Source: Denitratisoma sp. DHT3 (GTDB lineage: Bacteria > Pseudomonadota > Gammaproteobacteria > Burkholderiales > Rhodocyclaceae). From it: a stretch of 64,000 nucleotides of DNA. Every line of letters starts with the position of its first letter. Positions within the stretch are counted from its first letter, which is position 1. Positions 8,054 to 50,775 of this stretch are shown here, one piece after another. The stretch is from the NCBI RefSeq assembly GCF_007833355.1, contig NZ_CP020914.1:172047-236046 (forward strand), in the 5' to 3' direction. Position numbers and translations under genes: made by a program. The notes under the pieces are model-generated. The model made no database searches, was not told the origin of the DNA, and worked only from the letters and a program-made list of their open reading frames with translations.

Positions 8054-8653
8054 ATGACGTCCATGCCTGCCGAATTTCCTTCCCGCAATCCCACTGAAGT
8101 GCGCCTGTTGGCTGTCGCGCGGGAAATCACCAGCCGGGTCGGCTACGATGGCCTGACCATGAAGGAAGTGGCCGATCGCGCCGCTGTCGCCCGGGTGACG
8201 GTCTACCACTACTTCGGCAACAAGGATCGTCTGCTGGCGGAAATCGCCGCCGACCTGGAAGCCGAGGTGCTGGGCGAACTGGAACGCCTGCGGCTGCGCA
8301 CCCGGGACCCCGCCGCTCGGATTGCCCGCCGGCTGACGGTGGCCATGACCTATCTGCTGCGCGAGCCCCTGTTGTTGAACGCCGTGCTGACGGTGGCGAT
8401 GGGGGAACAGGGGCATCGGGTTTTCCTGCGCCAGGATGACAGCAGTCCGGTATGGCATCTGCTGGAAGCCGAATTGCGCGTATGGCCCAAGGGCCAGGCG
8501 CAACGCCTGGGGCGTATTTTTGGCCACCTGCTGCACTCCAGCCTGCTGTCGGTGTCTTCCGGCGCGATGTCGGTGAAGCAAGCGGAAGAGGATCTGAAGC
8601 TGGCGGGGCGGCTGCTGTTCGAGGGCATGCAGGCCGGCCTCAATAAGCGTTAG
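8054..8653 (+). CDS. TetR/AcrR family transcriptional regulator
   Basis: A 199-residue regulator with an N-terminal helix-turn-helix at residues 35-55 (LTMKEVADRAAVARVTVYHY, then FGNKDRLLAEI). The C-terminal half is a helical sensor domain. A second ATG three codons in (8063) is an alternative start. It follows the hydroxylase alpha subunit on the same strand after about 200 bases and may regulate it, itself or the divergent pair upstream; the CACGTG repeats are a candidate target. Ligand unknown. Confidence 0.85.
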   Translation: MTSMPAEFPSRNPTEVRLLAVAREITSRVGYDGLTMKEVADRAAVARVTVYHYFGNKDRLLAEIAADLEAEVLGELERLRLRTRDPAARIARRLTVAMTYLLREPLLLNAVLTVAMGEQGHRVFLRQDDSSPVWHLLEAELRVWPKGQAQRLGRIFGHLLHSSLLSVSSGAMSVKQAEEDLKLAGRLLFEGMQAGLNKR

Positions 8654-8699
8654 GGAAGCGCTGAATCGCCCCCCCCCCGAGGGAGTCGAGCCTTTCCAG

Positions 8700-10448
8700 T
8701 CAGCCGCCGCACCCCTTGAAGACGCGGCGGCTGCATCGGCCGCAGACGGCCGCGTCCAGCTTCGGTGGGATCGCCTGGGTGATGTCGTCGCGCAACCGGA
8801 AGCAGGCGTCCTCGCCGATCTCCGCCAGGTAGCCGCCGGTTTTCAGGAATTCGTAATTGGCCCGGTTCAATCCGTAGAAATAGAGCCGCCCGCCCAACTC
8901 GCGCCGCCGGCGGGCTTCCTGGCAAAGGATTTCGGCGCCGGCCACGTCGATGGTGTTGAGGCTCTGGGCGGCGATGAGCACCGACTTCCGTTCCGGCTGC
9001 CCGGCATCGACGGCGCGGAGCGCCTGCTGCAGGAAATGGGCGGCGCCGAACCAGGCCGAGCCATTGACCCGCAGGATCTGGAGCTGCGGGCATTCGTCGC
9101 GGCCTTCGGCGCGGACGAAATGGACGGATTCGCCCTCCCGCACCGGCAGCACCGGAATGATCTCCGGCCGGGATCGATGCACGATGAAGGCCAGCAGGGA
9201 CAGCAGCACCCCCAGCAGCAAACCGGCTTCCATGTGGATCAGGGTGCCCAGGAAGGTCACGCAGAAGATGGCGAATTCGAGCCGGCTGGCGCGCCAGATC
9301 TGACGGATGCCGGGAATGTCGATCAGGCCCCAGGCCACCAGGAACAGCACGCCCGCCATCACCGCATAGGGCAGGAAGGCGGCCAGGGGCGCGATCACGG
9401 TGAGCAGCACGACCAGCGCCAGGGCCGAGAATACGGCCGCCAGGGGCGTCTTGGCGCCGGCCTCGTAGTTCAGTCCGCTGCGGTTGAAGGAGCCGGGCGA
9501 GACGAAGGCGGAGAAGAAGGCGCCGGTGACGTTGGCCAAACCCTGGCCGATGAATTCCTGGTTGACGTCGATCTGCTGGCCCGAGCGGTTGCCGATGGCG
9601 CGGGCGACCGAGACGGCCTGGGTGATGGCCAGGATCGCCACGACCAGGGCCGAGCCCGGCAAGGCCAGTAGCACCGACGGCGAGAAGTCCGGCAGGGACG
9701 CGGGAGGCAGCCCCGCGGGCAGGGTGCCCACCGTGGCGATGCGCGCGGCCTCGGGGCCGATCAGGTGCGCGAGCAGGGCGGCATAGAGGCTGCCGGCCAC
9801 CATGGCGACGAGCAGATACGGCGCTCGGGGCAGGAAGCGACGGGAGACGATGCTCGCCATCAGGGTGAACAAGGCGACCGAGACCACCCAGAGGTTGATC
9901 TCGCCCAGCTGCGCCCAGGTCTGCTGCGCCAGGGCGGGGAAGGACCGCCGTCCGCCATGGTCGAGACCCGTGACGTTGGATATCTGGCTGGCGGCGATCA
10001 GGATGCCGGCCCCTGCCGTGAAGCCGGTCACCACCGTGTGGGAAATGAAATTCACCAGCCCGCCCAGGCGTGCCAGCCCGAGACTCAGCTGGATCAAGCC
10101 CACCAGGAGGGTCAGGCTCAAGGCGTATTGCAGATACTGGGCGGTGCCCGGTTCCGCGAATTGCGCGAGGGCGGCGAAGACGGCGATGGAAATGGCGTTG
10201 GTGGGGCCGGAAACCAAATGCCAGGAGGAACCGAACAGCGCCGCCACCACCGTCGGCACCATGGCGGAGTACAAACCGTACTGGGGCGGCAGTCCGGCCA
10301 GGGTGGCGAAGGCGATGCCCTGCGGAATCACGATCAACCCACCGACCAGGCCGGCCAGCAGGTCGTCCCGCAGCGTGCGGCGATTCACCCGGGGCCACCA
10401 GCGCAGGAAAGGCAGGGCGTTTTTCAGGGCGACGGGCAGGGGGACCAT
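8700..10448 (-). CDS. SulP family anion permease with STAS domain
   Basis: A 582-residue inner-membrane transporter. The N-terminal half has many hydrophobic helices, beginning with the family-typical stretch DLLAGLVGGLIVIPQGIAFA and VSGPTNAISIAV. The C-terminal cytoplasmic STAS domain (about residues 440-560) holds the loop SLNTIDVAGAE. The family moves sulfate, bicarbonate or dicarboxylates. The frame is open to 10502; ATG 10448 gives a usual N-terminus, though no strong ribosome-binding site separates the options. It is last in a minus-strand run with the MFS and DUF1214 genes. Substrate unproven; sulfate would suit a sulfotransferase locus but is only suggestive. Confidence 0.85.
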   Translation of the reverse strand: MVPLPVALKNALPFLRWWPRVNRRTLRDDLLAGLVGGLIVIPQGIAFATLAGLPPQYGLYSAMVPTVVAALFGSSWHLVSGPTNAISIAVFAALAQFAEPGTAQYLQYALSLTLLVGLIQLSLGLARLGGLVNFISHTVVTGFTAGAGILIAASQISNVTGLDHGGRRSFPALAQQTWAQLGEINLWVVSVALFTLMASIVSRRFLPRAPYLLVAMVAGSLYAALLAHLIGPEAARIATVGTLPAGLPPASLPDFSPSVLLALPGSALVVAILAITQAVSVARAIGNRSGQQIDVNQEFIGQGLANVTGAFFSAFVSPGSFNRSGLNYEAGAKTPLAAVFSALALVVLLTVIAPLAAFLPYAVMAGVLFLVAWGLIDIPGIRQIWRASRLEFAIFCVTFLGTLIHMEAGLLLGVLLSLLAFIVHRSRPEIIPVLPVREGESVHFVRAEGRDECPQLQILRVNGSAWFGAAHFLQQALRAVDAGQPERKSVLIAAQSLNTIDVAGAEILCQEARRRRELGGRLYFYGLNRANYEFLKTGGYLAEIGEDACFRLRDDITQAIPPKLDAAVCGRCSRRVFKGCGG

Positions 10449-41569: not shown

Positions 41570-42586
41570 ATGAAACTCGGACTGCAACTCGGCTACTGGG
41601 CTGCCAAGCCCCCGGTGGACGGCAACGTCGGCATCGCCCGCGCGGCGGAGGCCCTGGGCTTCGATTCGGTGTGGACCGCCGAATCCTGGGGCAACGACGT
41701 GTTCACGCCCCTGGCCTGGATCGGCGCCCACACCTCGAAGATCAAGCTGGGCACCGCCATCGCCCAGCTCTCGGCGCGGACGCCGGCGGCCTGCGCCATG
41801 GCGGCCATGACCCTGGATCATCTTTCCGGCGGACGCGTGATCCTGGGGCTGGGCGTCTCCGGCCCCCAGGTGGTGGAGGGCTGGTACGGCCAGCCGTTCG
41901 AGAAACCCCTGGCGCGCACCCGCGAATACGTGGACATCGTGCGCCAGGCGCTGCGCCGCGAGGCGCCGGTGAGGAATCCCGGCCCCCACTACCCCTTGCC
42001 CTACACGGGGCCGGGCGCGACCGGCGTGGGCAAGCCGCTGCGCCCCATCATCCACCCGCTGCGCGCCGACCTGCCCATCTACCTGGGCGCGGAGGGGCCG
42101 AAGAACGTGAGCCAGACCGCGCGCATCGCCGACGGCTGGCTGCCGGTCTATTACAGTCCGTTCCGCCAGGAGGTCTATGCCGACCAGTTGCAGGATGCGA
42201 AGCCCGGTTTCGAGATCGCGCCGCTGGTGATGGTGAACCTCGACGACGACCTGGAAAGGGCGCTGTTGCCGGCGAAGATGATGCTCGCCTTCTACATCGG
42301 CGGCATGGGCTCGCAGGAGCACAATTTTCACAAGAACCTGATGTGTCGCATGGGCTTCGAAGCGGAAGCCAACAAGATCCAGGAGTGCTTCCTCGCGGGC
42401 CGGCAGGCCGAGGCCGTGCAGTACGTGCCCACCAGCTTCGCCGACGAGATCACCCTGTCCGGGCCGAAGGCGCGCATCAAGGAGCGGCTGCAGGCCTGGC
42501 GCGAATCCCCGGTGACCACCTTGCTGATCAACGGCCCGCGCATGGACGAGGCGACCTTGCGCACCATCGCGGAACTGGTGCTCTGA
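41570..42586 (+). CDS. LLM-class flavin-dependent oxidoreductase
   Basis: A 338-residue luciferase-like TIM-barrel protein. Typical segments: ARAAEALGFDSVWTAESWG, LGTAIAQLSARTPA and RVILGLGVSG. The family uses either FMN or coenzyme F420; the pattern resembles F420-dependent members known from actinobacteria. ATG at 41570 follows AAGGAGATTTG, 9 bases after the thiolase-like gene. It could reduce or oxidise an acyl-CoA-derived ketone, but the substrate is unknown. Confidence 0.82.
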   Translation: MKLGLQLGYWAAKPPVDGNVGIARAAEALGFDSVWTAESWGNDVFTPLAWIGAHTSKIKLGTAIAQLSARTPAACAMAAMTLDHLSGGRVILGLGVSGPQVVEGWYGQPFEKPLARTREYVDIVRQALRREAPVRNPGPHYPLPYTGPGATGVGKPLRPIIHPLRADLPIYLGAEGPKNVSQTARIADGWLPVYYSPFRQEVYADQLQDAKPGFEIAPLVMVNLDDDLERALLPAKMMLAFYIGGMGSQEHNFHKNLMCRMGFEAEANKIQECFLAGRQAEAVQYVPTSFADEITLSGPKARIKERLQAWRESPVTTLLINGPRMDEATLRTIAELVL

Positions 42587-42628
42587 CGGACGGCGCAGCG
42601 AAAACAACACCACGGAGGAGGAACAGGA

Positions 42629-44239
42629 ATGACCCGGCGTACTTTCAATCTGGCCGACCTGCTTGAAATCTCGGCCGCAGTGAAACCCGACCAGGAGGCC
42701 CTGGTCTGCAACGACCAGCGGCGCACCTTCCGCCAACTGATGCAGCGGGCGACGGCGCTGGCCCGCTACCTCCACGCCCGGGGGCTGCGCCCCGGCGACC
42801 ACATCGGCATCCATGCCTACAACTCAATCGAGTTCATGGAGGCCTGTATCGCCGCTTTCATGATCCGCGCGGTGCCGGTGAATGTGAACTACCGCTACAC
42901 GGTGGACGAGACGCGCTACCTCTACGGCAACGCCGAACCCAAGGCGCTGGTCTATGAAGGCGCGCTGGAGGACATCATCGCCCCCGCCCTGGACGCGGCG
43001 CCGGCCTGCCAGGTGCTGCTGCGGCTAGGGGAGGGCAAGGGCCTGCTGCCCCAGGCCGTCGGTTTCGAGGCGGCCGTCGCCGAAGGCGGGCCGGACATCG
43101 GTGATGTCGGGCGCTCCGATGACGACACCCTGCTGCTGTACACCGGCGGCACCACCGGCATGCCCAAGGGGGTGATCTGGACCCACAAGGACGTGTTCTT
43201 CGGCGGCTTCGGCGGCGGCGGCAACTTCTGCCCCAAGGGGCCGGTAGCGGCGCCCGAGGAACTGGCCGAGCGCGTGCGGGAGAACTTCCCCGTCGTGCAC
43301 ATGGCCTGCGGCCCGCTGATGCACGGCGCCGGCTTCTGGGCGACGATGATCGGCCTGCTCTCGGGCCACAAGGTGGTGTTGAACGGCCGCCCCGACTTCA
43401 GCGCCGAATACGTGCTGGACCTGGTGCAGCGCGAGCGGGTCACCATCATCATGGTCGTCGGCGACGCCATGTGCATCCCCCTGGCCGACGCGCTGCAAAA
43501 GCACCCCGGCCGCTGGGACCTCTCCTCGATGTTCGTCGTCTCCTCGGCCGGGGCGCTGTTCTCGGACCACGTGCGCGACGCCCTGAAGGCCCATCTGCCG
43601 GCCAACGTGATCTTCGCCAACGGCATGGGCTCGTCCGAGTCCGGCCAGGTCGGCTCCGGCAGCAAGCCGGAGGGTGACGGCCTGATCCGCCTCAAGCCCG
43701 ACGCCAACAATGCCGTGGCGATCGACGGCGCGCGCTTCGCCAAGCCCGGCGAGACCGGCATCCTGGTGCGCAAGGGCTACCTGCCGCTGGGCTACTACAA
43801 GGACCCGCAAAAGACCGCCGAGACTTTCGTCCACATCGACGGCCAGCGCTGCGTGCTGATCGGCGACATCGCCCGCCAGGAAGACGACGGCGCGATCACC
43901 ATGTTCGGCCGCAACTCCCAGTGCATCAACACCGGCGGCGAGAAGGTATTCACCGAGGAAGTGGAAGAAGCAGTGCGCAGCTTCGACGGCGTCTTCGACG
44001 CCCTGGTGGTGGGCGTACCCGATGCCCGCTGGGGCCAGAAGGTCGTCGCGGTCGTCTCCCTGCGCCCCGGCCGAGCGGAGGACGCCGATGCCCTGAAGGC
44101 CCACTGCCGCCAGCGCCTGGCCGGCTACAAGGTGCCCAAGGACGTCATCTTCGTCGACGAAGTGCGACGCAACCCGGTGGGCAAGGCAGACTACCGCTGG
44201 GCCAAGACGACGGCGGAGCAGCGGCTGACGGGCACTTGA
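42629..44239 (+). CDS. Acyl-CoA synthetase (AMP-forming)
   Basis: A 536-residue ANL-family ligase with P-loop YTGGTTGMPK at residues 171-180, FGRNSQCINTGGEKVFTEEV in the hinge region and the catalytic Lys in RRNPVGKADYRW. It resembles FadD-type ligases for sterol side chains or branched acids. A GGAGGAGGAAC ribosome-binding site precedes the ATG. Last gene of the second acyl-CoA operon. Confidence 0.9.
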   Translation: MTRRTFNLADLLEISAAVKPDQEALVCNDQRRTFRQLMQRATALARYLHARGLRPGDHIGIHAYNSIEFMEACIAAFMIRAVPVNVNYRYTVDETRYLYGNAEPKALVYEGALEDIIAPALDAAPACQVLLRLGEGKGLLPQAVGFEAAVAEGGPDIGDVGRSDDDTLLLYTGGTTGMPKGVIWTHKDVFFGGFGGGGNFCPKGPVAAPEELAERVRENFPVVHMACGPLMHGAGFWATMIGLLSGHKVVLNGRPDFSAEYVLDLVQRERVTIIMVVGDAMCIPLADALQKHPGRWDLSSMFVVSSAGALFSDHVRDALKAHLPANVIFANGMGSSESGQVGSGSKPEGDGLIRLKPDANNAVAIDGARFAKPGETGILVRKGYLPLGYYKDPQKTAETFVHIDGQRCVLIGDIARQEDDGAITMFGRNSQCINTGGEKVFTEEVEEAVRSFDGVFDALVVGVPDARWGQKVVAVVSLRPGRAEDADALKAHCRQRLAGYKVPKDVIFVDEVRRNPVGKADYRWAKTTAEQRLTGT

Positions 44240-44249
44240 CGGGGTGGTA

Positions 44250-44271
44250 CCGCTTCCCATGCGGGAAGCGG
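44250..44271 (+). terminator. Hairpin after the second acyl-CoA operon
   Basis: Perfect 9-bp stem CCGCTTCCC/GGGAAGCGG with an ATGC loop, 10 bases after the ligase stop. It lacks a T-run. Confidence 0.5.
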
Positions 44272-44649
44272 GCTGCTGCGCGAGGGAAGGCTGGCATGGT
44301 CCGGTGCGTGGCTGCTCGCCATGCGGCGCGGCTAGTGCCAGCGCTCATATTCCGCTTTTTGAAACATGCTGTCGACGAACGTCAGGGGCGGTTGTCGGCC
44401 AGTAGCGGACGTAAGGCAAATTTATGCAAATCCGCCGGCCACAAAAAAGACCAGCAGGATGACAATCGGTAGCGAGACAGGCACAATCCTTACGTCATTA
44501 CACTGTGACGCCTATGATCGCTATCTATTCTCGTAAATATTGCCAAGAATCTGCCGAGAACCTGTATTGGCCTGCTCTCCAGACTGCTGCGTTATCCAGG
44601 GTATACGGCACCCAGCCAGCGTATGCGGCAATAATGCCGTCTACTCTAG
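44272..44649. other. Gene-poor flank to the left of the cassette array
   Basis: About 380 bases of lower GC than the flanking operons. Short ORFs exist on both strands but none has a convincing start or family match. An inverted repeat ACGGCA/TGCCGT lies near 44605-44640, just before the first core site. An attI-like site or decayed attC might lie here, but no clear partner box is seen. Confidence 0.45.
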
Positions 44650-44689
44650 GTTGGGCGCCATCGAATCCGCAGCAACTGGGAACATCCGT

Positions 44690-45046
44690 ATGAAGAAGAA
44701 ACCCTCGGCTAATCCTGTCTCAGAGCGCAGAGTTCCAATTCTCAGTCCGGTGGAGGAGCGGATACTCAGCCAAATTGTTCAATGGGCTGACGAGTATTCT
44801 GCCGTCAAAGCCAAGGGTGATCGGCTTGCGTATCTCGAACCTCCGACCACCGAGAAATGCAGCACGCAGTTTCGCTATAGTCACGAGGAAATGCTCGCCC
44901 TGCTCAACCGTCTCGAAAATCAAGAATTGATCATCAAGCGCCGCAGACAGTCGGCTGGGCTCGGCGGAAACGGTTACGACGGATCGTTGTATTCTGAGGT
45001 TATCCCAACGGAATGGGGGCGCGAAGTCTTGTCGCGCAATCGGTAG
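44690..45046 (+). CDS. Hypothetical protein, first integron cassette
   Basis: A 118-residue soluble protein starting MKKKPSANPVSERRVPILSP. The middle (YSHEEMLALLNRLENQELII followed by KRRRQS) looks like a helix pair of a small winged-helix or DNA-binding domain, but no family is recognised. The ATG at 44690 lies 33 bases inside the cassette boundary, a normal spacing for cassette genes; the frame is open upstream across the core site. It ends 22 bases before attC1. Confidence 0.6.
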   Translation: MKKKPSANPVSERRVPILSPVEERILSQIVQWADEYSAVKAKGDRLAYLEPPTTEKCSTQFRYSHEEMLALLNRLENQELIIKRRRQSAGLGGNGYDGSLYSEVIPTEWGREVLSRNR

Positions 45047-45068
45047 CAGTGGGTACTCAGTACCTGAC

Positions 45069-45134
45069 GCCCAACCCGGCAGTCGAGCGGACCTGCGCGA
45101 AAAGCCGCGCAGGCCACTCACTTCTACGTTGGGC
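45069..45134 (+). other. attC site 1
   Basis: A 66-bp attC: R'' GCCCAAC (45069-45075) and R' GTTGGGC (45128-45134) are exactly complementary. Between them lies a hairpin CCTGCGCG/CGCGCAGG (45092-45113). The first 45 bases are identical to those of attC3. Confidence 0.85.
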
Positions 45135-45143
45135 CTCACTATC

Positions 45144-45463
45144 ATGAGCGAATCGATCATCATCGCATTAATCGGCGTCGCAGGTGCCGTCAAGGCTCCT
45201 TTGCTACGATTGCTGTTCAGTGGCTTTCCCACTTTCTCCAAGAGCGCGCGGCGTCCAAGAAAAACAAGCCAAGAAAGGATCTTCTGCTCGAAATGCTGCG
45301 CTCTCCAAAATGCCGTTGGCGCAAGCTCGAAACGCTTATGCATGTAATCGGCGCCGACGAAGAAACAACAAAGTGACTACTGCTTGAAGTGGGAGCGCGT
45401 GCATCTGAAGACGGCCAACCCTTGTGGGGCTTGATTGAGCGCAACCCACTTCCAAAGGATTAG
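45144..45463 (+). pseudogene. Broken cassette gene (frameshift plus internal stop)
   Basis: Starting at ATG 45144 the frame reads MSESIIIALIGVAGAV and then loses coding sense. Two bases further over, a continuous frame reads FLQERAASKKNKPRKDLLLE, then MLRSPKCRWRKLETLMHVIG and GADEETTK, hits TGA at 45374-45376, and continues LLLEVGARASEDGQPLWGLI to TAG at 45461. I recall intact proteins of this pattern (TKRLLLE-type) from other integron cassettes, with CGA where TGA stands here. A frameshift near 45185-45205 and one nonsense change thus inactivate it. Confidence 0.65.
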
Positions 45464-45499
45464 AAGTGTCCCAGCAAGGCATTCCAACGGAGCAAGACA

Positions 45500-45979
45500 A
45501 TGTGGAACCCGTTTAGTAAGCGCGCAGACATCCCAAGGCTCGGGGATCTGACTAAGGAAAGCATTACTGAGCTTGAACGCTTCATCGGAAGTGGGATCTA
45601 TTTCGAAAAGGCCATGCTCGCCGCAATCCCAGTCGCGGCCGTTCTGCAGGGCTTGACGACGTTATCAAGAGGCCAGCCGCACAATACGATTACCAATTAC
45701 TACTCCATAGCCCAGCATGTCTTCTTGAAGGACGAAAAAGCGACTCAAGCAGTTGAAACGTTTGTTGATGCCCTCCGTGCTGATATTGCGAGACTGTCAG
45801 CACCCAATTGGCTTCCGTGGGCCTTAGCCGATGAAGTTTTCGCGGGCGTATTCGGACTGGATAAGCAACTAATGACCCAAAGTGGCAATGACGAACACGC
45901 TGAAGCCTCTGTCAAGAGCTATGGCATCGCGACAGCGTGCTTCAGCATCTACAACCAAGTTATCCATTACAAGCTCTGA
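45500..45979 (+). CDS. Hypothetical protein, second integron cassette
   Basis: A 159-residue protein of unknown function (MWNPFSKRADIPRLGDLTKE). Helix-rich and without a clear signal peptide or membrane anchor. No attC separates it from the broken gene upstream, so both ride in one cassette of about 960 bases, or an attC has been lost. It ends 16 bases before attC2, which supports it as the true cassette gene. Confidence 0.6.
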   Translation: MWNPFSKRADIPRLGDLTKESITELERFIGSGIYFEKAMLAAIPVAAVLQGLTTLSRGQPHNTITNYYSIAQHVFLKDEKATQAVETFVDALRADIARLSAPNWLPWALADEVFAGVFGLDKQLMTQSGNDEHAEASVKSYGIATACFSIYNQVIHYKL

Positions 45980-45995
45980 GTAGTAATACTGTGAG

Positions 45996-46091
45996 GTCCA
46001 ACCCCTCGGTCAACCGGACCGCCTGCAAGCTGTGCTTGCAGGTTCCCCCCGCGCTTCGCGCTCCGGCGGTCGGTTACCTCAAACGTTGGGC
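45996..46091 (+). other. attC site 2
   Basis: A 96-bp attC: R'' GTCCAAC (45996-46002) and R' GTTGGGC (46085-46091), pairing with one G-T. Internal inverted repeats CTGCAAGC/GCTTGCAG and GCGC-TTC-GCGC form the folded arms. Longer and different in sequence from attC1 and attC3. Confidence 0.85.
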
Positions 46092-46108
46092 GCTTAGGAG
46101 GTCGTAGC

Positions 46109-46702
46109 TTGGAAACTCTGTTTCTGCAATTTCTCAGTGCACTCGTGGGCGGCTTGGTGGTCTATGTTTTCGGTATTCGAAAATTGTCCATTGAACTTCG
46201 GAACGCCTTTATCCAAAAGCAAATGTCCGAGTTCTACTCACCGATTGCCGGCTGCCGCAAACGCATAAGAGCAAAGAGCGAAGTGCGCGGGAAGGTATCT
46301 GCTGCGGCCAGTGAAGCCTGGGCGGAGCTATGTGCACCGTATTCTGAGACCAAGCAGCCCATGCTCAATCACGAAAAGCTGTACGCCCCGTACGGAAAGA
46401 TCATTGAGTACGACAACAACCAACTACGTGAAGAGCTGATACCCCTCTATCGCAAGATGCTCGACCTCTTCACTTATAAATACTGGCTCGCCGATGAAGA
46501 CACCCGCGCCCATTACCAAGAGTTTCTTGAGTTCATCGAAATTTGGGAGCGTTACCTCGCAGAGGCATTGCCCGGTGGCGTCTTGCGCAAACTTGGACAC
46601 ACCGAAGAGAACGTGCTCCCGTTCTACGAGCATGTCGAACGTAAGCTCTCTGCGCTCCAAGAAGAAATCAATGCCAAGAGCTTCTGGAAACTACGCCTAT
46701 GA
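46109..46702 (+). CDS. Hypothetical membrane-anchored protein, third integron cassette
   Basis: A 197-residue protein with an N-terminal membrane helix (LFLQFLSALVGGLVVYVFGI) and a helical, charged remainder (AFIQKQMSEFYSPIAGCRKR). The start is TTG at 46109, 7 bases after AGGAGG, and 18 bases inside the cassette boundary. I recall similar proteins among integron cassettes and in stress islands, without known function. It ends 8 bases before attC3. Confidence 0.65.
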   Translation: METLFLQFLSALVGGLVVYVFGIRKLSIELRNAFIQKQMSEFYSPIAGCRKRIRAKSEVRGKVSAAASEAWAELCAPYSETKQPMLNHEKLYAPYGKIIEYDNNQLREELIPLYRKMLDLFTYKYWLADEDTRAHYQEFLEFIEIWERYLAEALPGGVLRKLGHTEENVLPFYEHVERKLSALQEEINAKSFWKLRL

Positions 46703-46709
46703 CAATCGC

Positions 46710-46775
46710 GCCCAACCCGGCAGTCGAGCGGACCTGCGCGAAAAGCCGCGCAGGCCGGTTTGCTCCACGTTGAAC
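46710..46775 (+). other. attC site 3
   Basis: A 66-bp attC: R'' GCCCAAC (46710-46716) and R' GTTGAAC (46769-46775). The inner hairpin is the same as in attC1; the copies differ mainly in the right arm. It is the last recombination site of the array. Confidence 0.85.
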
Positions 46776-46845
46776 ATCTGCTTTTGCTAAGCGGCTACAG
46801 GCTGCTAAGGGTCGCAACCCGCCGGATAAATCCAGCAGGCCCGAT

Positions 46846-47340
46846 TCACCGAACCAACTCGCAAACAAACACCGGGATGTTGCGGTCGGTGCGGGCCTGG
46901 TATTCGTCGAAGGCGGGGTAGAGTGAGAGCAGGTGGGGCCAGAGGTCGCGCTTCTCGGCGTCGCTGACCTGGCGCGCGCGGTAGGTGCGGCGCTCGGCGC
47001 CGACCTGGATCTCCACTTCCGGATGGGCCTTGACGTTGTAATACCAGGTGGGATGGCTGTCGGCGCCGCCCTGGGAGGCGACGATCAGTTTCTTGTCGCC
47101 CAGGGGCAGGTGGATCAGGGCGATGCTGCGCGGCTTGCCTGACTTGGCGCCGGTGGTGGTGACCAGGCAGATCGGAAAGCCGCCGGGGAAAGTGTTCAGC
47201 CAGCGGCCTTTGCTGGCGCGATAGACCCAGACATTGATGCGGGTGAAGGTCTTGATGAACAGGCGGGTCAGGCCCTTGGCGTTTTCCGGATAGGGCTTCA
47301 GGTCCTCGCGGCGGGTCTTGACGTAGTCGTAGCGGATCAT
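46846..47340 (-). CDS. Deazaflavin (F420)-dependent nitroreductase-like protein
   Basis: A 164-residue split-beta-barrel protein of the Ddn/F420-dependent quinone reductase family. Evidence: FPICLVTTTGAKSGKPRSIA, KLIVASQGGADSHPTWYYNV and the tail YQARTDRNIPVFVCEL. Family members reduce quinones or nitro compounds with F420H2, and are mostly actinobacterial. With the LLM-class enzyme at 41570 it raises the question of F420 use. It is downstream of, and likely co-transcribed with, the enoyl-CoA hydratase gene. Confidence 0.82.
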   Translation of the reverse strand: MIRYDYVKTRREDLKPYPENAKGLTRLFIKTFTRINVWVYRASKGRWLNTFPGGFPICLVTTTGAKSGKPRSIALIHLPLGDKKLIVASQGGADSHPTWYYNVKAHPEVEIQVGAERRTYRARQVSDAEKRDLWPHLLSLYPAFDEYQARTDRNIPVFVCELVR

Positions 47341-47382
47341 GATTGGCTCTCTCGTGGTGGGGCCTATGCGCCTTATTTCGCC

Positions 47383-48201
47383 TTATTTGCCGACGTATTT
47401 CGGCGGGCGTTTTTCCTTGAAGGCCAGCATGCCTTCCTTCGCGTCCTGGGTGGAAAAGATCGGCCAGCCCAGCGTTTCCTCGCGGCGCAGCGCCTCGGCT
47501 TCGGGCAGGTCGTGCTGGTGTTCGCGCAGGGACTTGAGGATCGCCTGGACCGAGAGCGGCGCGTTTTCGCAAAGTTCGTCGGCGATCTTCAGTGCCGCCG
47601 CCAGGGCCTGGCCCTTGGGCACGACGCGGTTGATCAGGCCCCACTGCAGCGCCTCCTGGGCGCTGACGTGGCGGCCCAGCAGCAGCATTTCTGCGGCCAG
47701 GGCATAGGGGATCTGACGGCGCAGGCGGATGGTGGAGCCGCCCAGGGGGAAGAGGCCGCGCTTGCATTCGGTGATGCCGAACACCGCGTCCTCCGCCGCG
47801 ACGCGGATGTCGGTGCCTTGCAGGATCTCCGTGCCGCCGGCCAGCGCATAGCCTTCGACGGCGAGGATCACGGGTTTCTGCGGCTGGTTGTGGCGCAGCA
47901 GTGCCTGCCAGTGCAGATCGGGGATCGACTTCATCAGCGCCTGGATCTCGCCGGCGTCGGCGTCGCCGCTGGGGCCGGACTTCAGATCCATGCCGGCGCA
48001 GAAGGTGTCGCCCTTGCCGGTGAGGATCGCGCAATAGAGTTCGGGGTCCGCGTCCAGGCGGCGCCAGGCGCGGTACATGCCGACGATCATGGCGCTGGAA
48101 AGGGCGTTCTTGGCCTCGGGCCGGTTGAGCGTGACCACCATGACGTGGCCCTGTTGCTCGATGGTGCAGTTGGGGGTGCTGATGTCGAGCGCCTCGAACA
48201 T
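47383..48201 (-). CDS. Enoyl-CoA hydratase/isomerase family protein
   Basis: A 272-residue crotonase. Segments TFCAGMDLKSG, AVEGYALAGGTEILQGTDIR and GITECKRGLFPLGGS carry the oxyanion hole and glutamates. Strong similarity to the hydratase at 17149 (shared GSTxRLRRQIPY) marks them as paralogues. ATG at 48201 follows CAGGAGGCATTC; the frame stays open upstream. It is divergent from maeB and co-oriented with the F420-type protein. Confidence 0.9.
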   Translation of the reverse strand: MFEALDISTPNCTIEQQGHVMVVTLNRPEAKNALSSAMIVGMYRAWRRLDADPELYCAILTGKGDTFCAGMDLKSGPSGDADAGEIQALMKSIPDLHWQALLRHNQPQKPVILAVEGYALAGGTEILQGTDIRVAAEDAVFGITECKRGLFPLGGSTIRLRRQIPYALAAEMLLLGRHVSAQEALQWGLINRVVPKGQALAAALKIADELCENAPLSVQAILKSLREHQHDLPEAEALRREETLGWPIFSTQDAKEGMLAFKEKRPPKYVGK

Positions 48202-48498
48202 GAATGCCTCCTGATCCAAATCCAAAAGTTCGATGTTGTGCGATGCGTGTGAAGACGCGCAGTTTGTCATGAGGCTGGAGGTCGCACCGCGATGGCAGAC
48301 GGCAAGTTGCCCATTACGGGTAGAAATTCCCCTTCCGGCGTCCATGGGGCGGCTGCCCCCGCAGATGCGCCATGAAATGCGAACAAGGACCCTCCGGGCC
48401 GGCGAACTGGCAGGGGCTGTCAAATGGGTTCGGCTGGACCCGCCCCTTGGGGCTAAAATAGCCGGCTAATCTTCCAAGAACAACTACATCGATTCGCC

Positions 48499-50775
48499 AT
48501 GGATGACCAGATTCGCGCCGCCGCCCTCGAGTATCACCTGAAGCCCAAGCCCGGCAAGATTGCCGTCACGCCCATCAAGCCGCTGGCGACCCAGGGCGAT
48601 CTTTCCCTGGCTTACTCTCCGGGTGTCGCGGCGGCCTGCGACGAGATCGTCGCCGATCCGGCGAATGCCTACAAATACACCTCGCGCGGCAATCTGGTGG
48701 CGGTGATCACCAACGGCACCGCCGTGCTGGGCCTTGGCAACATCGGCGCCCTGGCCGGCAAGCCGGTGATGGAAGGCAAGGGCGTGCTGTTCAAGAAGTT
48801 CGCCGGCGTCGATGTGTTCGACATCGAGGTCAACGAGCTCGACCCGGACAAGCTGGTGGACATCATCGCCGCGCTGGAACCCACGTTCGGCGGCATCAAC
48901 CTGGAGGACATCAAGGCGCCGGAGTGCTTCTACATCGAGCAGAAGCTCAAGGAGCGGCTGAATATCCCGGTCTTCCACGACGACCAGCACGGCACCGCGA
49001 TCATCGCCAGCGCCGCCGTGATCAACGGCCTCAAGCTGGTGGGCAAGGACATCGGCCAGGTGAAGCTGGTCTGCTCCGGCGCCGGCGCGGCCGCCATCGC
49101 CTGCCTGGACCTGATGGTGAGCCTGGGGCTGAACCCGAAGAACGTCCATATCGTCGACAGCAAGGGCGTGGTCCATGTCGGCCGCGACGCCAGGCTGGAC
49201 CCCTCCAAGGCACGCTACGCCCAGGAGACCACGGCGCGCACCCTGGGCGACATCATGCCCGGTGCCGACGTGTTCCTCGGCCTGTCCGCCGCCGGCGTGC
49301 TGAAGCCGGAGATGGTCAAGGGCATGGCGCCGAACCCCATCATCCTGGCGATGGCCAATCCGGTGCCCGAGATCCTGCCGGAGCAGGCCAAGGCGGTGCG
49401 TCCCGACGCGATCATCGGCACCGGCCGTTCCGACTACCCCAACCAGGTCAATAACGTCCTCTGCTTCCCCTTCATCTTCCGCGGCGCGCTGGACGTCGGC
49501 GCCACCTCGATCACCGACGAGATGAAGGCCGCCTGCGTGCGCGCCATCGCCGACCTGGCCCATGCCGAGCAGTCCGACCTGGTGAGCGCCGCCTACGCCG
49601 CCGAGGAAATCAAGTTCGGCCCCGAGTATCTGATCCCGAAGCCCTTCGATCCGCGCCTGATCGTCAAGATCGCCCCGGCCGTGGCCGAGGCGGCGATGGC
49701 CTCGGGTGTGGCGACGCGGCCCATCGCCGACATGGATGCCTATCGCCAGCAGTTGAACGAATTCGTCTATCACTCGGGGCTGGTGATGAAGCCGGTGTTC
49801 GCCGCGGCGAAGAAGAATCCGGGCCGCATCGTCTTCTGCGAGGGCGAGGACGAGCGCGTGCTGCGGGCCGTGCAGACCGTGGTGGACGAGGGGCTGGCCA
49901 AGCCGATCCTGATCGGCCGGCCCGAGGTGGTGGAAATGCGCATCGCCAAGGCGGGTCTGCGCCTTCGCGCCGGCCAGCATTTCGGCCTGGTGAATCCGGA
50001 TTCCGATTCCCGCTACAAGGAGCTGTGGCAGGACTATTACGAGATCATGAAGCGCAAGGGCGTCGGCCCCGAATACGCCAAGCGCGAGATGCGCCGGCGC
50101 ACCACCCTGATCGGCGCCATGCTGGTCAAGCACGGCTATGCGGACGGGCTGCTGTGCGGCACCTTCGGCAAGTATTCCCAGCACCTGCGCTACATCGACA
50201 GCGTGATCGGCCAGCAGCCCGGCATTGGCAGCTACTACACGCTGAACATGCTGATCCTGCCCAATCGCACCCTGTTCATCGGCGACACCTACGTCAATTA
50301 CGACCCCAGCGCCGAGCAGCTGGCCGAGATGACCCTGCTGGCGGCCGAGGAGGTGCGGCGCTTCGGCATCGCGCCCAAGGTGGCGCTGCTGTCCCATTCC
50401 AGCTTCGGCACCGACGACACGCCCACCGCGATCAAGATGCGCCGCGCCCTGGAACTGGTCCAGGAGCGGGCGCCGCAACTGGAAGTGGAAGGAGAGATGC
50501 ACGGCGACGCGGCCCTGTCCGAAACCATCCGCGGCCAAGTTTTTCCCCATTCCCGCCTGCAGGGGCCGGCCAATCTGCTGATCATGCCCACCCTGGACGC
50601 CGCCAACATCGCCTTCAACCTGCTCAAGACGGCGGCGGGCGACGGCCTCACCGTGGGGCCGATGCTGCTGGGCGCCGCCCGTCCGGTGCACGTCCTGACG
50701 CCCACCGCGACGGTGCGGCGCATCGTCAACGTGGCCGCGCTGCTGTCGGTCGAGGCCGCCCACGAACGGGGTTGA
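48499..50775 (+). CDS. maeB: NADP-dependent malic enzyme with phosphotransacetylase-like domain
   Basis: A 758-residue fusion. Residues 1-430 are the malic enzyme: [47 protein letters not shown] and [12 protein letters not shown] bind malate, metal and NADP. Residues from about 430 to the end are a phosphate-acetyltransferase-like domain ([34 protein letters not shown]), usually regulatory and responsive to acetyl-CoA. The enzyme converts malate to pyruvate, CO2 and NADPH, useful when growth substrates yield acetyl-CoA. Confidence 0.95.

Follow-up and report, generated by a model that had tools for sequence, protein, structure and literature searches.

The gene-cassette array at positions 44650–46775 of the 64,000-nucleotide stretch of the Denitratisoma sp. 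DHT3 chromosome analyzed here (hereafter, the window) lacks an adjoining integrase gene and carries an attI-like recombination site at its head. Four attI-headed arrays, this one included, were found in the chromosome, which encodes a single integron integrase (IntI). The sequence shows the attC sites, an attI-like head and its exact junction with cassette 1; only one intI gene exceeds the profile cut-off, and this layout recurs at two further loci of the genome and at several in its relatives. Judging from these sequences, the array is probably an integron platform without intI, consisting of an attI-like head and three cassettes, which would derive from a copy of an integron that lost intI and at which IntI acting in trans would still recombine cassettes.

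The window corresponds to C1:172047-236046 of a one-contig genome of 3,655,561 bases, and the array occupies positions 216,696–218,821 of the contig. Its features are listed in Table 1, in which the overlapping short frames upstream of the cassette 2 open frame are, presumably, one decayed cassette gene. The leader contains a single promoter-like match (44459–44487, 9 of 12 bases, with 0.2 matches expected), and a search of the window at the Rfam gathering threshold matched only a tRNA.

Table 1. Features of the cassette array, in window coordinates
Feature	Position	Strand	Remarks
Leader upstream of attI-like core	44315–44649	+	Last 52 bases are part of the attI-like site
attI-like site without intI	44598–44656	+	Core GTTGGGC at 44650–44656, G|TT at 44650/44651
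Cassette 1	44651–45128	+	Limits: attI-like core and attC1 core
Cassette 1 gene, 118 aa, family not assigned	44690–45046	+	
attC1	45069–45134	+	84.7 bits; fold z -5.0
Cassette 2, apparently fused (broken gene and open frame)	45129–46085	+	Limits: attC1 and attC2 cores
Broken small gene, cassette 2	about 45144–45464	+	Overlapping short frames upstream of the open frame
Cassette 2 open frame, 159 aa, family not assigned	45500–45979	+	
attC2, long stem	45996–46091	+	42.3 bits; fold z -3.1
Cassette 3	46086–46769	+	Limits: attC2 and attC3 cores
Cassette 3 gene, 197 aa, TTG start, family not assigned	46109–46702	+	
attC3, chimeric	46710–46775	+	54.6 bits; fold z -1.9

The attC sites were evaluated with a covariance model (R2) built from the nine attC of the resident integron of this genome (alignment A1, 22 pairs, with 86.5% of cells paired vs 75.6% in shuffles). 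All three window sites scored at least 42 bits with this model, which was trained on other sites (E = 9.8e-19, 6.5e-8 and 4.7e-11 for attC1, attC2 and attC3), and thus form an array of the attC family; the next best match in the window, at 20.5 bits, was taken for chance. All three attC sites of the original prediction, and its left core, were confirmed, as was the complementarity of R'' and R', which extends over 7/7 positions in attC1, 6/7 in attC2 and 5/7 in attC3. The predicted folding of the arms held for attC1 and attC2 when the bottom strands were folded and was poor for attC3, in which the arms mismatch each other, the left one resembling attC1 and the right one being of an unrelated type. 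The last R' of attC3 (GTTGAAC) lies inside sequence that is common to the array-free locus of a congener (G001). Recombination inside the shared stem likely produced this chimera, which, given its poor fold, is probably a poor recombination substrate. As a separate observation, attC1 and attC3 show about 99% identity over some 61 bp to an attC from a Citrobacter freundii plasmid, where it is part of a class 1 integron, and about 83% identity to the attC of blaOXA-2 type cassettes.

Genome-wide, R2 gave 18 matches among the 150 of 1,939 first-look candidates that were scored: eight of the nine resident attC, the three in the window, three at 637,119–639,357, three at 2,874,517–2,877,961, and one at C1:2433298 (27.6 bits) that was rejected, being located inside a gene that reads as a methionine synthase-like one. 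The ninth resident attC (1167324–1167383) is absent from this genome-wide list and present in the window-search run of the same model; a relaxed attC pattern scan yielded mostly noise.

To characterize the head of the array, an attI profile was fitted on 26 intI-adjacent sites of relatives (35 intI loci were examined, nine of which yielded no attI site), with the attI of this genome left out in scoring, and was run over the GTT positions (n = 4,116) in 211 kb of the 3,656-kb genome. The top four positions are the heads of the four arrays, namely, the resident integron (39.4 bits), the arrays at 637–639 kb (L040, 37.8 bits) and 2.874–2.878 Mb (L041, 37.3 bits), and the window site at 44650 (19.6 bits), followed by a fifth position at 7.1 bits. 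The score of the window site falls in the leave-one-out range of the 26 fitted attI (10.6–39.4 bits) and was attained by 1 of 20,000 base shuffles of the site; column-permuted profiles gave 0.02 matches on average, with a maximum of 1. In alignments spanning about 57 bases, the window site scored highest against the attI of the two congeners (44 for G002 and 36 for G001, with the next at 20), and 2,000 dinucleotide shuffles of the upstream portion of the site never attained 44. Its core pairs with the R'' of attC1 at 7/7 positions, the pattern that insertion of cassette 1 at this G|TT would leave; the junction of cassette 1 is exact. Some observations count against the attI reading: the window site scores far lower than the other two orphan sites; in a plain DNA search, the best place in G002 is an orphan attI but with an E-value of only 0.09; and unrelated places in G003 and G012 score better than that orphan attI (E = 0.006 and 0.03). 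On the balance of these sequence comparisons, the site at 44650 is attI-like and of the type of the congeners: the extra left core site originally noted is present, but it is not a stray core.

A plain array formed by off-target insertion at a non-attI, attG-like site, with the left side resembling attI only because IntI needs similar bases, is an unlikely alternative. Off-target insertion at attG sites has been described (Loot 2024, as cited in the accessible portions of PMC12444791 and PMC12901181), and the right junction of the window array lies in sequence common to the array-free G001 locus. Two further points in favor of such an insertion also weigh against the intI-loss explanation: attI-like sites are reported to be frequent across genomes (PMC10127599, accessible portion), and 9 of the 20 remote arrays in relatives, described below, have no attI head. 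Off-target insertion is, however, at odds with the extent of the likeness to congeneric attI, which reaches to about -50 (36/54 positions identical with the G002 attI), with the sharing of 56 and 129 bp between the resident attI and the heads of L040 and L041, respectively, and with the score of -30 at the corresponding place in the array-free G001.

A search of the genome with the TIGR02249 profile produced 13 matches, one of which, a full-length IntI of 487.3 bits, is over the cut-off of 265. This sole intact intI (C1:1170946-1171890, L009) lies about 952 kb from the window array and belongs to a complete resident integron, whose attI and nine attC are located upstream of intI on the opposite strand and precede insertion sequence-like and toxin-antitoxin-like genes (named by reading). 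None of the 13 matches is inside C1:172047-236046, in agreement with the predicted lack of an integrase in the 64 kb; the window array, with no intI adjoining its attI-like site, is a CALIN in the sense of having no adjoining integrase and is not a complete integron. The search for intI and further attC across the genome that had been proposed as a check thus returned one intact intI, the nine resident attC and two more integrase-less arrays, L040 and L041, with three attC each. Accordingly, the description of an array without an integrase holds locally, but the genome does contain a complete integron at a distance along with two further arrays; and of the two options originally offered, a CALIN or the tail of a distant array, the tail does not fit, given that the array has an attI-like head of its own and that homology with G001 restarts at 46767. 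No convincing intI remnant was detected in the 4 kb upstream of the window site with the IntI of this genome as the only query (best E = 0.046).

The heads of the other two orphan arrays are closely related to the resident attI (94.6% identity over 56 bp for L040 and 74.4% over 129 bp for L041) and to each other (85% over 243 bp). The 251-bp leader of L040, used as a query, matched three places in this genome; across 60 other genomes it matched two weak cores, of which the G004 one adjoins intI and the other is in G030.

Eight between-array matches of at least 90 bp were found, none of which involves the window. Four of these are between L040 and the resident array, all within insertion sequence pieces; since nothing else matches within this genome, recent movement between its platforms is not apparent, which counts against the preferred explanation. 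The other four involve congeners: the resident array of G001 matches the resident array here (552 bp, 80%), L041 (181 bp, 93%) and L090 of G001 itself, and the resident array of G002 matches L092 (102 bp, 89%). These comparisons bear on the possibility that rearrangement or insertion sequence activity transferred the window array from the resident integron, which we regard as very improbable. The first attC of the window array and that of the resident array are alike, and insertion sequence sequence was recognized by reading in the resident array as well as in L040 and L041, as such a transfer would suggest; but the window site agrees with the G002 attI at more positions (36/54) than with the resident attI (28/57), no cassette is common to the window and any other array compared, and no insertion sequence was recognized, by reading only, at 43800–47800 of the window.

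Two side observations concern the content of the arrays. An insertion sequence with the ends GAAGCTGTAGAAA, which we take to belong to the IS1182 family, begins directly after an attC GTT core in four instances from two genera: the two in L040 (about 8137–8738 and 9354–9955) show both ends and a repeated GTT, and those in L019 (about 13372) and L094 (about 1768) show one end. BrnT-like cassette genes occur in three arrays of this genome (L040, 8785–9063; L041, 8830–9108, minus strand; L019, 15981–16277, minus strand), the L040 copy being assigned by Pfam and the other two by reading.

The history of the locus was approached through G001, the only congener that is comparable there, so that the comparison gives no direction to the gain or loss of the array. 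The BLAST alignment of window positions 42001–50000 with the G001 locus (L063) ends at 44314 and restarts at 46767, which is 2 bases short of the last core; the 2.45 kb at 44315–46766 corresponds to about 50 bp in G001. In G001, the 2.88-Mb locus is array-free as well, and the 637-kb locus (L087) contains an array of other sequence with no attI head, which was counted against the attI-headed reading. A motif, TGAAC(G/A)TC(C/T)GCT, was noted after the array in the window (46771), at the array-free G001 locus (L063, 8845, minus strand) and at the end of the G001 array (L087, 7368); 18 places with up to 3 mismatches were listed, 5 of them with at most 2, and two of these five (window 56611 and L092 3437) are off array ends.

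In a tree of 15 IntI sequences, the integrase of this genome falls in a group of eight (support 96/93), with 78.7% identity to those of G030 and G012, and lies outside the clade formed by the IntI of the two congeners (support 100/99), to which it is 67.6% and 67.0% identical. This genome and both congeners share the sequence that borders the locus on its intI side, and the integrase seems, from these comparisons, to have been replaced in place at C1:1170946-1171890. Because the attI of the window is of the congeners' type and the IntI of this genome is of another clade, we infer descent from an integron copy at the window locus that would have lost intI and kept attI. Furthermore, with the window site matching the attI of the congeners and the heads of L040 and L041 matching the present attI, the simplest reading is that the window platform would be older than the other two orphan platforms.

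The same layout was sought in relatives. IntI over the cut-off was identified in 37 of 61 genomes, this one counted, and attC matches at E ≤ 1e-5 in 23 of these 37. The loci analyzed comprise L117–L136 (20 loci chosen by eye among the 150 matches listed) and arrays of G001, G002 and G030; several of the relatives are drafts, in which a separate contig does not prove distance from intI. Seven arrays with the head cut by a contig end were left out (L117, the plus-strand matches of L118, L125, L126, L130, L132 and L136). With an attI head defined as a site that scores 17.5 bits or more and lies no further than 2.5 kb upstream of the first attC, such a head is present in 11 of the 20 remote arrays with an uncut head, or in 10 of 19 without L094 of G030, which was included because the attI query had matched it; six of the 20 have a single attC (L090, L094, the minus-strand match of L118, L123, L124 and L128). 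The nine arrays that have no attI head are L087, L090, L093, L119, L120, L122, L123, L127 (11.4 bits) and one of the two in L135. Among 7,133 GTT positions, 15 sites reach 17.5 bits, 4 beside intI, 11 at array heads and none elsewhere, compared with 0.12 on average (maximum 2) for permuted profiles.

Pairing of the attI core with R'' was complete (7/7) at 11 of the 14 attI-headed arrays (3 here and 11 elsewhere), and 6/7, 5/7 and 3/7 at one each, the latter two both in G020; nearby GTT sites attain 6/7 in 2 to 14% of cases, a shift of the attC start by up to 4 bases being allowed in both comparisons. At several orphan sites, the sequence is similar to the resident attI of the same genome (L134 of G020, 92% over 170 bp; L121 of G005, 98.7% over 149 bp; L092 of G002, 91% over 58 bp; L135 of G022, 80% over 96 bp), a likeness that is favored in the relatives, though not for this genome, by the training of the profile partly on their attI. 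The L121 array of G005 retains residues 1–71 of IntI (E = 4e-15) and is an integron caught after partial loss of intI. At the other 13 of the 14 attI-headed arrays, a search of 2.2–4.0 kb upstream with the IntI of this genome as the only query revealed no convincing intI remnant, which counts against the explanation by loss of intI. Altogether, remote attI-headed arrays are most likely platforms that lost intI and kept attI. Independently of these arrays, contig C1 of G020 contains five IntI matches, four of which exceed the cut-off (three intact, the other with a stop) and one of which is broken and below it.

We give appreciable weight to, but lean away from, the reading that the attI-like site and cassettes of the window are an inert, decaying relic, which is compatible with an origin by loss of intI and incompatible with use in trans. 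The broken gene in cassette 2, the chimeric attC3 and the low score of the attI-like site are of the kind that decay would leave; against it, cassettes 1 and 3 have open genes with homologues elsewhere, attC1 folds well, and at other orphan platforms the attI core is kept better than the leader. In four comparisons, identity in the core and leader was 50/53 vs 155/191, 47/53 vs 60/127, 45/52 vs 71/124 and 48/52 vs 63/116 (Fisher P = 0.02, 1e-7, 1e-4 and 4e-7), leader identities of about 47–57% being near the level of a forced alignment. The better conservation of the core fits use of the site, although copying of the core only would look alike. Under the preferred explanation, IntI made in trans from its distant locus would recombine cassettes at the attI-like site of the window.

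The cassette genes, as originally predicted, encode proteins of no assigned family: neither Pfam nor PADLOC gave a match for any of the three. The cassette 1 protein has 25 listed matches at E ≤ 1e-3 including itself, that is, 24 others, the best with 81% identity; the protein of the cassette 2 open frame has two homologues (92% and 72%); and the cassette 3 protein has 120 listed matches at E ≤ 1e-3, with up to 94% identity and with Rhodocyclaceae, Thiobacillus, Competibacteraceae and Marinobacter among the named sources. In 300 genomes of the order, the cassette 3 protein was found at E ≤ 1e-20 in one, its own. A scan of named genomes with the cassette 3 protein located four loci (in Sulfuritalea, Nitrospirales, Marinobacter and Thermoanaerobaculia records), two of which have attC-like sites, so that the cassette status of this gene elsewhere is only partly supported.

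Several known systems resemble the window array in part. CALINs located away from a resident intI occur in Xanthomonas and Shewanella (PMC12444791, PMC9229058); these share with the window array the lack of an adjoining intI, but the accessible portions of both papers mention no attI-like head of the kind present here. An attI-headed array that lacks an integrase and coexists with a complete integron has been described in a Shewanella prophage (PMC9892861, accessible portion), a single case in a cryptic prophage, whereas here there are three such arrays in one chromosome, with others in several genera and more than one attI type. In the delta-attI cassettes of class 1 and 2 integrons (PMC12901181, accessible portion), attI sequence is likewise off its normal position, but in those a cassette ends in a partial attI instead of attC, whereas here attI sequence heads the array. 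The integron remnant of Treponema phagedenis similarly consists of cassettes left after loss of intI (PMC3607928); the accessible portion of that paper names attC and cassettes and no attI, and here, in contrast, another intI is still present in the genome. In a partial literature search that covered subscription journals thinly, no account of attI-headed arrays recurring in chromosomes was found, which is weak evidence of novelty.

The attI head offers a concrete origin, loss of intI from an integron, for part of the integrase-less arrays, and makes their service by a remote integrase directly testable. More speculatively, these arrays may represent distributed integrons of this bacterial family, in which one IntI would serve several attI platforms scattered along the chromosome: attI would be under selection where intI is gone, cassettes could be captured and expressed in several genomic settings simultaneously, and orphan attI types might outlive replacement of the integrase. 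The attI profile combined with the complement of R'' is a simple search rule that would split CALINs into attI-headed and attI-free ones.
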